From JALXCG01 sp026991065 [NCBI: Gemmatimonadota bacterium] (GTDB lineage: Bacteria; GCA-2686955), in NCBI GenBank assembly GCA_026991065.1, contig JALXCG010000526.1, positions 1-5,419 of the forward strand: a stretch of DNA of 5,419 nt. Direction: 5' to 3'. Below, piece after piece: positions 1,592-4,987 of the stretch. The notes beneath the pieces are model-generated. The model did not search any database and was not told the origin of the DNA. It saw nothing but the letters and a program-made list of their open reading frames with translations. Position numbers and translations under genes: made by a program. Every line of letters begins with the position of its first letter. Positions within the stretch are counted from its first letter, which is position 1.

Positions 1592-2971
1592 ATGAAACGC
1601 ATAGTATCGATCCCGGGGACGGCGCTGCGCCTACTCCTTGTGGGTGGGATCGTTTCGGTTCTGGGGAGCGGCTGTACCGACACGACCAATCCCCCCGAAG
1701 TGGTTCCCCCCGGCTCGGAGACAAGCAGTTCCTGCGTCAATTGTCACCGCGATCAGGATCTGCTGATCGCCAGCGCGGATCCCGATACCACACCGCCGCC
1801 GGCCGATTCGGGCGAGGGCTGAGGCGGGGCAGTTGCCCCGCTGGAAGCGTGGGAAAAGGTTGTTATTGAGAATATGGACGAGTTCCTTCGTGACGCCCAT
1901 GGGCGGGTTGGCTGCACCGGCTGCCACGGTGGCAATTCCACCGCGGCGGACAAGGAGTCGGCCCACGAGGGGGTGACGCTTGACCCGACCGAGGCGCCGG
2001 CCGCGGCCTGCGGAGGCTGCCACCAGGATATCTCCGCCGCGGCGCCGCTCTCGATGCACTATCTGCTCTCCGGGGAACGCGCCTTGATCGAGAAACGGGC
2101 GGAGTGCACTCTGGATTCCGATCCGAATCTTCATCAGGCGTTCACCGAAGATTGTTTCAAGTGCCACGCGACCTGTGGCCAGTGCCACGTGAGTCGGCCC
2201 AAGTCGGTTGGCGGCGGGCTGATTGAAGGGCACATTTTTCAGCGCACGCCGTCGATGGTGAACCAGTGCACCGCTTGCCATGGGAGCCGCATTGGTGAAG
2301 AGTACCGTGGCGCGCACAAGGACCAGATCCCCGATTACAAGGGCGATGTGCACTATCTGAAGAATTCAAGTGTCGGCGGCAAACACTGCGCCAATTGTCA
2401 CTCCGGGGCGGAGATGCACAACGGGCAAGCGGATCATCGCTACTCGGTTGCCGAGATGCCACGCTGTGAATGGTGTCATTATGACGACGAGGCCACCAAT
2501 GACTATCACGAACAGCACTGGGGTGAACTGAGCTGCACTGTTTGCCACGCGCAGGACTACAAAAGTTGCAACGATTGTCATGTGCAGGGTGGCGGCCTGA
2601 GCGAACCCTCTTACCTTTCTTTCAAGATCGGGCACAATCCGCGCCCGGATGATCGACCCTATAAATATGTCACTTTGCGCCACATTCCTATTGCCGAAAC
2701 CTCCTACGATCCCACCGGCTACAGTGGTGGCTTGCCGGGTTATACCGATGAGCCGACCTGGAAAATGACGACACCTCACAACATCCGGCGCTGGACAGCG
2801 CGTACCGATACGACCGGGGGGCGCTCCTGCATGACCGCGTGTCATGAGACACCGGCCACGGTCGAGGGGTACTTCCTGCGGGCGGTGGATTTAGAAGAGA
2901 TGTCGGAGGACGAGGCTGCGGCCAATGCGGCGCTGATCGTGCCGGATTCGCCGCCGACCGAATGGAACTGA
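1592..2971 (+). CDS. extKL: Multiheme c-type cytochrome lipoprotein, ExtKL-type selenoprotein with in-frame UGA read as selenocysteine
   Basis: Predicted 459-residue periplasmic or outer-membrane electron carrier. Residues 1-28 are a lipoprotein signal (MKR, hydrophobic core, LGSGC; lipid Cys28, loose lipobox). A Pro/Thr-rich linker follows. Heme sites CXXCH start at 48, 108, 140, 188, 195, 226, 266, 292, 315 and 326, and a CX3CH lies at 413-418, giving 11 potential hemes. The pair at 188-199 is only two residues apart. Codon 77 is TGA (1820-1822) in GEG-U-GG, between hemes 1 and 2. The frame stays open on both sides, and 17 protein-like codons (GGAVAPLEAWEKVV...) run to the next ATG at 1874. 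Read separately, the downstream part would have ten heme sites but no signal peptide, so it could not be exported for heme attachment, and that ATG lacks a well-spaced Shine-Dalgarno. I recall a family called multiheme (seleno)protein ExtKL in which ExtK and ExtL are one Sec protein; this fits. The alternative is a nonsense-mutated gene. The gene starts 20 bases after extI. Confidence 0.8.
1820..1822 (+). other. In-frame UGA, proposed selenocysteine codon (Sec77 of ExtKL)
   Basis: This TGA is the only stop in an otherwise continuous frame from 1592 to 2971. Its context is GGC-TGA-GGC, giving Glu-Gly-Sec-Gly-Gly. A SECIS-like hairpin begins 13 bases after it. No selA, selB, selC or selD gene is in the window, so decoding capacity must be checked in the rest of the genome. 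Confidence 0.75.
1824..1841 (+). other. Perfect GC-rich hairpin directly after the UGA, competing with the SECIS candidate
   Basis: GCGGGGC (1824-1830) and GCCCCGC (1835-1841) form a perfect 7-bp stem with an AGTT loop, starting one base after the UGA. Its loop is only 8 bases from the UGA, too close for a standard SECIS. It shares 1836-1841 with the SECIS candidate, so the two folds exclude each other. It is not followed by a T-run, so it does not look like a terminator. Confidence 0.5.
1836..1853 (+). promoter_or_regulatory. Candidate bacterial SECIS hairpin for UGA 1820-1822
   Basis: The 5' arm CCCCGCT (1836-1842) pairs with AGCG-T-GGG (1846-1853). This gives seven base pairs with one bulged U at 1850 and a GGA loop at 1843-1845. 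Twenty bases separate the UGA from the loop. As I recall the bacterial SECIS model, the loop lies about 16-37 bases after the UGA, is short and has a G in its first two positions, and all three conditions are met. The hairpin sits inside the coding sequence and would be bound by SelB. It overlaps an alternative hairpin at 1824-1841. Pairing was worked out by eye, without folding energies. Confidence 0.6.
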
Positions 2972-3045: not shown

Positions 3046-4050
3046 ATGACCAAGCTATCGAAAGTAGCCCTGTGGACCACACCGGCCATGATCGCTCTCT
3101 TCGCGGCTGGCTGCAATGATGACGACAGTGGCACCAATCCGCCGCCGGAAGTGAACGAATTCGAGACCTTGACCACCTACCTGAGCAACAACAGCCTGGA
3201 TCTTCCGAGTCTGTTCGACGGCTGGTTGATCGATGCCCAGACCATTTTCGACAACGGCCCGGAGACCTATTTCATCATGGATATCCGTGGTGGTGATATC
3301 TATGGCGGTGGCAATGGCACGCCGGATTTCGAGGATGGCCACATCCCGGGCGCCCACTCGGTGGCGCTGAGCGACGTGGTTGACTACGAGGCCGCCAACA
3401 ACACCAGCGGGCTGCCGGTCGTGGTGGTTTGCTACTCCGGTCACAACGCCGCGATGGCGACGATGGCGCTGCGCCTGATGGGCGTGCAGGCGGCATCGCT
3501 CAAATTCGGGATGAGTGCCTGGAACGCTGCCTTTGACGTGTGGACCGGCAATGTGGGCAACACCGCACTGGACTACGCGGGTGCCTGGACCACCGATCCG
3601 GTTGCGGAAATGCCGAGCGGTTTCGATGCCCCGGTCCTCAATACCGGCGATGAGGATGGTTTCGACATTCTTCAGGATCGGGTGATGGCTACTCTGAGCG
3701 AGGGGCTCCACGGGATCAAGAACGTGGATGTGCTTTCGGCAACCACCGACTACCAGATCTTCAACTACTGGGCGATGTCCGACATCGAGCACTACGGCCA
3801 CATCACCGGCTGCTACCAGGTGACCCCGGGCGAGTTCGGTGTGGATGACCTGGATGCGTTGGATCCGAACGCGGAGAACGTATTCTACTGCTGGTCGGGA
3901 CAGACGGCGTCGATGATCGCCGAGTGGCTGCGGGTGCTTGGCTACGATGCCTACACCCTGCTCTATAGCGCCAATGGCATGATCTACGATGACCTCGAGA
4001 GCCACAAATGGCCGGGGCCGGGCGATTTTGAATTCGAAACCGGTTCCTGA
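3046..4050 (+). CDS. extH: Tandem rhodanese-domain lipoprotein, ExtH-like
   Basis: Exported 334-residue lipoprotein with two rhodanese-type domains, probably handling sulfane sulfur or the selenium equivalent. The signal is MTKLSK, then a hydrophobic stretch ending in lipobox FAAGC (lipid Cys23) and an Asp/Pro-rich linker. Domain 1 (about 40-175) has FIMDIRGG, GHIPGAHSVAL (99-108) and the six-residue loop C129-YSGHN. Domain 2 (about 205-325) has the parallel GHITGCYQV and loop C282-WSGQT. Both domains keep the catalytic-type cysteine, whereas tandem rhodaneses often keep only one. Neither loop has the Arg that is common in thiosulfate sulfurtransferases, so the substrate may differ. Cys256, in the GHITGC motif, is an extra possible redox partner. 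The gene follows extKL by 74 bases and is probably co-transcribed. In Geobacter, as I recall, extH heads the operon; here it follows the cytochrome. The rhodanese fold and lipid anchor are clear; the ExtH name depends on context. Confidence 0.82.
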   Translation: MTKLSKVALWTTPAMIALFAAGCNDDDSGTNPPPEVNEFETLTTYLSNNSLDLPSLFDGWLIDAQTIFDNGPETYFIMDIRGGDIYGGGNGTPDFEDGHIPGAHSVALSDVVDYEAANNTSGLPVVVVCYSGHNAAMATMALRLMGVQAASLKFGMSAWNAAFDVWTGNVGNTALDYAGAWTTDPVAEMPSGFDAPVLNTGDEDGFDILQDRVMATLSEGLHGIKNVDVLSATTDYQIFNYWAMSDIEHYGHITGCYQVTPGEFGVDDLDALDPNAENVFYCWSGQTASMIAEWLRVLGYDAYTLLYSANGMIYDDLESHKWPGPGDFEFETGS

Positions 4051-4139: not shown

Positions 4140-4979
4140 CTATTCGGCCGGCTGCGGCGCCCGGCTCAGGATCCGCTTCAGCCATGCGCCGACCACGGCG
4201 TAGACCTTGGCCCGCTCCACCTCGTTGAAGATCTCGTGGTACATGCCGTCGAAGATATGCAGCTCTTTGTCTTCGCTGGCGACATCGCGATGAAAGAGCA
4301 CGCTGCCTTCGGGCGCGACAATGCGGTCTTCGCGCCCGGCGAGGATGAGCAGCGGGAGCTTGATCTCTTCGGCGCCGGCCAGGGCGTCTTCCATCGCCTG
4401 CGTCATTTCGGTGTAGAGCCGCGGCGAAACCTGATCGTGAACCAGGGGGTCGGACTCATAGGCCTCGATGATCGATGCGTCGTGGGAGAGGGCGCCGGGG
4501 TCGATCTCGTTGGACATGCTGAAGCTGGGCAGGATGTTGGAGAGCAGGCGCCCGGCACTCTCTTTCCACCAGGGGACTTCGACCGCTACCTGGAAGGCGG
4601 CGCCGGAGAGGATGGCGCCGTGCACCTCTTCTTGATGGTCGAGCAGGTAGTGGGTGACGATGAGCCCGCCGAGCGAGTGGCCGATGAGGATGCGCGGCAG
4701 ATCGGGGGCCTCCACCACCAGGTGGTCGACGATTTCGCGGATGCCGCCGACAAAGTCGGCAAAGCGGTCGCAGTGGCCGCGCTGGCCGGGGGAGTTGCCG
4801 TGACCGACATGGTCCATGGCATAAACGCTGTAGCCTTGGTCGTTGAGATAGGCAGCGATCTCTTCGTAGCGGCCGGAGTGCTCGCCGAGACCGTGAGAGA
4901 GGACGATTGCCGCGCGCGGTTTTTCCACGGACCAGATGCGCAGGTGACGCCCGGATGGTGACTTGGTTTCTGTTAGCAT
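4140..4979 (-). CDS. Alpha/beta hydrolase, monoacylglycerol lipase / lysophospholipase family (serine hydrolase S33-like)
   Basis: Probable cytoplasmic serine hydrolase acting on monoacylglycerols, lysophospholipids or similar esters. The 279-residue length is typical of the family. In order it shows the oxyanion motif HGLGEHSGRY (29-38), DHVGHGNSPGQRG (57-69), nucleophile elbow GHSLGG with Ser102, a cap region (about 135-195), the acid in AGREDRIVAP (Asp218) and the catalytic His248 in MYHEIFNE. All three catalytic residues are present. There is no signal peptide. I place the start at the ATG at 4979, because GAGG lies 8 bases upstream; a GTG at 4985 would leave only 2 bases to that site. 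The gene is convergent to extH and divergent from miaB, so it is probably a single-gene unit unrelated to the conduit. Class is certain; the exact substrate is not. Confidence 0.93.
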   Translation of the reverse strand: MLTETKSPSGRHLRIWSVEKPRAAIVLSHGLGEHSGRYEEIAAYLNDQGYSVYAMDHVGHGNSPGQRGHCDRFADFVGGIREIVDHLVVEAPDLPRILIGHSLGGLIVTHYLLDHQEEVHGAILSGAAFQVAVEVPWWKESAGRLLSNILPSFSMSNEIDPGALSHDASIIEAYESDPLVHDQVSPRLYTEMTQAMEDALAGAEEIKLPLLILAGREDRIVAPEGSVLFHRDVASEDKELHIFDGMYHEIFNEVERAKVYAVVGAWLKRILSRAPQPAE

Positions 4980-4987
4980 TTGCACAA

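Follow-up and report, generated by a model that had tools for sequence, protein, structure and literature searches.

The window, meaning the whole stretch of 5,419 nucleotides that was analysed, is the entire contig C526 of a metagenome-type assembly of a Gemmatimonadota bacterium (902 contigs, 83.8% complete, 1.3% contamination). A beta-barrel-like ORF, a multihaem cytochrome gene and a rhodanese lipoprotein gene follow one another on its forward strand (Table 1). The barrel-like ORF ends 20 bases 5' of the cytochrome gene and is its probable outer-membrane partner; its barrel nature is putative, being judged by eye from strand-like stretches in alternation and from the ...RLGYRW at the C-terminus. 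No Pfam or NCBIfam model matched this ORF, and no blastp relative was found among the context ORFs of the family loci described below. In the rhodanese lipoprotein, domain 1 was assigned by Pfam Rhodanese (4.1e-15) and domain 2 by NF045521 at 251-308 (E 0.016) plus an active-site motif; the active-site loops are VVVCYSGHNAAM and VFYCWSGQTASM. Since TGA terminates the cytochrome gene (2969-2971) and both same-strand neighbours (1569-1571 and 4048-4050), this genome uses it as an ordinary stop and not generally as sense. On the opposite strand (4140-4985, minus) a serine aminopeptidase S33-type alpha/beta hydrolase (Hydrolase_4), unrelated to the cluster, was found. An Rfam scan of the window returned nothing at gathering thresholds, and PADLOC returned no match.

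Table 1. Coordinates of the features in the window (position 1 is the first nucleotide of the contig)
Feature	Position	Strand	Remarks
Beta-barrel-like ORF, truncated by contig start	3..1571	+	Open frame reaching the contig edge
Predicted Sec-containing eleven-haem lipoprotein cytochrome, 459 residues	1592..2971	+	Single frame; Cytochrome_C7 Pfam match; alignable over its whole length with 31 relatives
In-frame TGA, codon 77, predicted Sec in motif GEG-U-GG	1820..1822	+	Same column is TGA in 30 loci and Cys in L133 and L151
Competing GC-rich hairpin, loop AGUU 1831-1834	1823..1842	+	Free fold -18.5 kcal/mol; begins directly after UGA
Candidate SECIS hairpin, 7 bp with one bulged U, loop GGA 1843-1845, -9.4 kcal/mol	1836..1853	+	20 nt after UGA
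Tandem-rhodanese lipoprotein, 334 aa	3046..4050	+	74 bases 3' of cytochrome; Pfam Rhodanese and NF045521

The sequence-only reading had described the cytochrome region as two ORFs in one frame parted only by the TGA at codon 77, and this held: from 1592 the sole other stop is the terminal TGA. As it had also stated, the part 5' of codon 77 has a lipoprotein-type signal (LGSGC, Cys28, by eye) and one haem site, CVNCH at residue 48. The part 3' of codon 77 has nine CXXCH (residues 108, 140, 188, 195, 226, 266, 292, 315 and 326) and one CXXXCH (residue 413), so the ten haem sites claimed for it are reached only if the CXXXCH is counted; the accompanying claim that this part has no export signal stood, a search by eye at ATG 1874 having found none. 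The 17 codons between the TGA and this ATG, which had been called coding-like, give GGAVAPLEAWEKVVIEN, and 6 to 12 of the 17 positions are identical in the eleven relatives listed, though they would be untranslated if TGA were a stop. The predicted selenocysteine (Sec) lies 29 residues past the first haem Cys in the window protein, and 28-31 residues where the distance was measured in Chloroflexota. Structure prediction for the mature window protein alone gave a mean pLDDT of 32.

A contig scan of genomes confirmed no close relative of the window cytochrome (17 stretches matched the pattern), and none was found in plasmids. One other genome of the same phylum had no full homolog, only a haem-motif match (E 9e-4, 37 residues). 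Other Sec users were reached via a SelA scan, and 39 genomes, drawn from the 80 SelA loci returned, were searched for the cytochrome. Two of the 39 contained end-to-end relatives (41% and 37% identity), and both of these have a single in-frame TGA at the same place. Profile searches placed the family in 16/40 genomes of Calditrichota, the phylum of the Caldithrix MAG (17 loci); at full length in 12/400 genomes of Chloroflexota, the phylum of the Chloroflexi MAG (13 full loci, plus one partial); and at full length in 1/396 genomes of Acidobacteriota, the phylum of Acidobacteria Mor1 (partial matches in two more). The cytochrome family is present in these three phyla beyond that of the window. 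Rows L019, L102, L103, L149, L152, L153 and L154 were dropped as partial or weak. Extra TAA or TAG codons occurred in four Calditrichota matches, all outside the haem-bearing stretch that such stops bound. Loci L138-L143 (Chloroflexota) have 13 CXXCH, with the additional haem sites C-terminal.

Of the 32 loci retained, 30 have UGA in the codon-77 column and the other two, L133 and L151, have Cys, which is the pattern that had been anticipated for residue 77 in homologs. The 30 UGA loci come from 28 genomes and comprise the window, 16 Calditrichota loci and 13 Chloroflexota loci. The tree puts the two Cys rows in separate clades, an indication that Sec and Cys were exchanged at least twice in the family; the branch of L151 is long and its placement unsure.

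A conserved stem follows the UGA in the family, formed by nucleotides 15-20 with 24-29 counted from the U of UGA and closed by a GUU loop. Across 29 UGA loci, 154 of 174 pairs are formed, against 97.8 +/- 4.8 after synonymous recoding with the codon usage of each gene (2000 trials, none reaching 154). The covariation and recoding counts do not include L137 (= L101), whose hairpin is offset in the alignment, or L133, which lacks the UGA. When the window and L119 were excluded, 92.0% of 150 cells were paired (27 sequences, 25 distinct), compared with 33-54% in slid-stem controls; with both included the value is 88.3%. Exchanges of G-C to C-G and of U-A to C-G were seen. The covariation score exceeded 500/500 shuffles, and two other covariation measures were not above shuffles (doubly changed pairs 136/500, further pair types 357/500). 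The published bSECIS model allows 16-37 nt from UGA to loop, and the family loop and 17 nt spacing agree with it (PMC13188914). A hairpin meeting that model was found in 22 of 30 distinct UGA loci, the remaining 8 failing mostly on the energy threshold, and the Cys form L133 has a weak hairpin (-3.8 kcal/mol) that does not meet it.

The window itself is atypical. Only 2/6 pairs of the family stem are kept at the equivalent positions (1834-1839 with 1843-1848). Its candidate SECIS hairpin meets the bSECIS model at chance level, as do 284/948 arbitrary TGAs in pieces of the same genome and 633/2000 synonymous recodings, and the competing hairpin has 8 nt from UGA to loop, less than the 16-37 nt that this model allows (PMC13188914). 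As L119 and L131 also form only 3/6 family-stem pairs each, shifted hairpins may occur inside the family.

Genes for selenocysteine synthesis and insertion had been named as a check, and the window genome has them: SelA (438 bits), SelB (341 bits, extending up to the end of its contig), one tRNA-Sec above cut-off (73.5 bits, confirmed by ARAGORN) and SelD above cut-off with one in-frame TGA in GGUARKL (L161:57-1088 minus, G000:C739), followed by a hairpin with a GUU loop. None of them shares a contig with the window in this MAG of 902 contigs. The nearest named SelA is 67% identical and belongs to a MAG labelled Gemmatimonadetes ARS67. SelD was above cut-off in 19/19 genomes checked, and 18/19 have a copy bearing one in-frame TGA. 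Of the genomes with a Cys form, G449 (Calditrichota) has a SelD without UGA and no SelA match. G1000 (Acidobacteriota) still has a UGA-bearing SelD, so loss of Sec use does not account for its Cys. SelA was strong (E 1e-120 or better) in 13/15 UGA-form Calditrichota genomes; G436 has no SelA match and G443 only one at 3e-5, both being drafts and both having a UGA-bearing SelD. SelA (E 1e-30 or better) was also present in 16/24 Calditrichota genomes without the cytochrome, and the association of cytochrome and SelA over the 40 genomes minus the Cys-form one was not significant (13/15 vs 16/24, Fisher p 0.26).

Adjacency of rhodanese genes was scored by blastp with the window rhodanese, within about 210 bases of the cytochrome. 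A rhodanese gene adjoins the cytochrome at 27/32 loci, namely the window and 26/31 others. Of the five loci without one, L122, L124, L128 and L137 reach a contig edge within 1 to 395 bases on the downstream side; the flanks of L147 are present but contain no rhodanese. None was found beside 19 control loci, which had short flanks (0/19; 12 ExtKL loci and 7 weak cytochrome matches). Counted among the 27 is a natural in-frame fusion of rhodanese and Sec cytochrome in Chloroflexota (L150:3-2489, G480:C164), in which two rhodanese domains are followed by haem 1, Sec414, the other haems and a C-terminal hydrophobic segment with a basic tail. Two Chloroflexota rhodanese partners have four rhodanese domains each. 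The wider context varies among loci: L104 and L163 have a barrel-like ORF and more CXXCH proteins downstream of the cytochrome; a 4Fe-4S/NrfD pair is divergent from the Sec cytochrome operon of L104, NrfD and 4Fe-4S genes are near that of L105, and an HdrD-like protein occurs in the context of L164. GcvH-like proteins, identified in one case by Pfam and in the other by eye, lie beside the 4Fe-4S/NrfD pair at L104:9654-13398.

The cytochrome had initially been linked to ExtKL, which a prediction of 2007 put among the candidate selenoproteins (PMC1914089). In descriptions of the Geobacter extHIJKL cluster, ExtKL (GSU2937-2936) occurs with the rhodanese lipoprotein ExtH and the outer-membrane integral protein ExtI (PMC6148476, PMC5877670). 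The likeness is that of an exported multihaem c-type cytochrome with one in-frame UGA, clustered with a rhodanese lipoprotein and with an outer-membrane protein, the latter being putative in the window, where the barrel was assigned by eye. The two differ in haem number, five in ExtKL against eleven haem sites in the window family, and in the place of the Sec, which ExtKL carries in a C-terminal DGUPTPN and the window family in a GxGUGG that follows haem 1. Identity with ExtKL was ruled out: the window cytochrome gave no match to NF040886 at E<=1 (model cut-off 250 bits), and none of 19 family members matched that model at E<=0.01. All 12 of the NF040886 loci fetched carry DGUPTPN after five haems (L112 counts nine, since its segment enters the neighbour). 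Alignment of the family profile with an ExtKL profile by hhalign (10/12 loci used; L108 and L112 omitted) covered only a 23-column haem motif. NF040886 was above cut-off in 39/395 genomes from the phylum to which the Desulfomonile MAG belongs; among the 49 matches listed above cut-off, a single TGA occurs in 42 and a TAA in 1, and the other 6 have neither. The ExtKL-family matches without in-frame TGA or with TAA (G321, G067, G243, G366, G329) are possible Cys forms, copies or cases of decay.

Other known families were compared in the same way. A review of May 2026 lists 119 prokaryotic selenoprotein families, and the available part of its table includes as haem-related or CXXCH families ExtKL, the TIGR04315 tetrathionate reductase family octaheme cytochrome and the GSU2204 family NF041027 (PMC13188914). 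TIGR04315 and NF041027 matched 0/19 family members at E<=0.01. ExtM (NF040943) and the DmsE-type decaheme model (TIGR03508) gave weak haem-repeat matches in 7/19 and 5/19 members, far under curated cut-offs (e.g. 37.8 of 800 bits); for both, the review table as available records no Sec (PMC13188914). A profile search of the PDB returned weak haem-motif matches only (E 0.001-0.006). The family was absent from the available parts of the review table (PMC13188914) and of deep-Sep (PMC12013277), and no model in NCBIfam of June 2026 names it. In the open-licence PMC literature no description of a Sec multihaem cytochrome with rhodanese, or in these phyla, was found; one may exist elsewhere. The family is apparently undescribed and separate from ExtKL.

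Members of the family are almost certainly selenoproteins, judging by their sequences, and the window gene very probably encodes one lipoprotein cytochrome in which the UGA at codon 77 is decoded as Sec. The proposal of the sequence-only reading, a single cytochrome whose Sec falls between the first and second haem sites, is borne out by the UGA column of 30 loci, the Cys in two, the family SECIS and the full machinery. It had named missing machinery, or an unrelated residue at position 77 of homologs, as findings that would speak against it; the outcomes favour Sec, except for the atypical SECIS of the window itself. That exception gives some room to an improbable variant, in which the family is made up of selenoproteins but the SECIS has decayed in the window lineage, so that the window copy is a dying gene that stops at codon 77. 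The loss of four of six stem pairs would fit decay, as would the lack of a full homolog in the other genome of the phylum; yet all 11 haem sites and the 365 codons after the UGA are intact, the residues that a stop would leave untranslated are conserved, SelD of the same genome points to UGA being decoded as Sec, and L119, with a similarly divergent stem, has an intact gene too. It is most improbable that the locus yields a one-haem lipoprotein and, by re-initiation at 1874, a separate second protein. An ATG is present there and gene callers would give such a split, but the second product would not have the export signal that haem attachment in c-type cytochromes requires, the residues between TGA and ATG are conserved, and the Cys relatives are single open frames. 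Least tenable of all is equating the cytochrome with ExtKL, the known Geobacter multihaem selenoprotein: the neighbours are the same (rhodanese lipoprotein, barrel-like protein and a cytochrome with in-frame UGA), but model match, haem number, Sec position and profile alignment all speak against it.

The explanation that we prefer, at a probability of about 0.75, is that the window encodes an exported, lipid-anchored eleven-haem cytochrome in which Sec would be inserted by UGA recoding, belonging to a family distinct from ExtKL and forming part of a rhodanese-linked electron conduit. We infer substrate, direction of electron flow and protein location as follows. Sec would sit on a Gly-rich, probably flexible arm (GxGUGG) close behind the first haem site. 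Similar mobile arms, with Sec flanked by Gly, occur for example in SelD and thioredoxin reductase. The selenolate would attack the persulfide sulfur on the neighbouring rhodanese lipoprotein or, alternatively, a polysulfide, thiosulfate or selenite-derived chalcogen delivered by the rhodanese. The haem chain would provide or take up electrons via the barrel or periplasm, to or from the quinone pool, and the net reaction could be sulfur, polysulfide or selenite reduction, or sulfide oxidation. The cluster would then be a chalcogen-linked electron conduit working like Geobacter extHIJKL (rhodanese lipoprotein, barrel and Sec cytochrome) but built on a different cytochrome. Because the persulfide carrier usually adjoins the cytochrome and is once fused to it, selenol-persulfide exchange is the simplest reading of the Sec; coupling of such exchange to the haem chain is put forward tentatively, at slightly under even odds. 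Another role for a real Sec, as haem ligand, redox sensor or peroxide scavenger and not in sulfur exchange with rhodanese, is unlikely. Many selenoproteins are peroxidatic, the Sec is near haem 1, and a cytochrome without nearby rhodanese occurs in L147 and perhaps G035. Against these points stand the recurrence of the rhodanese neighbour and its one fusion, and Gly-rich surroundings that would fit a mobile arm better than a fixed ligand.

Gene callers would split the gene in two and overlook the selenium, and since the family is missing from the review table and NCBIfam, its annotated copies should be broken in two or cut short. That a Sec cytochrome goes together with a rhodanese in two unrelated cytochrome families, in one case within a single chain, points to a common reaction, namely sulfur or selenium transfer between a persulfide and a selenol that is wired to haems. 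A wider proposal, somewhat more speculative still than the exchange mechanism, is that the family represents a second, independent type of Sec multihaem enzyme at the cell surface or in the periplasm: a selenol-dependent chalcogen oxidoreductase found in several phyla, convergent with Geobacter ExtHIKL, of which the L150 fusion might be the minimal one-chain form. The pairing could also bear on the role of ExtHIKL in selenite and tellurite reduction.
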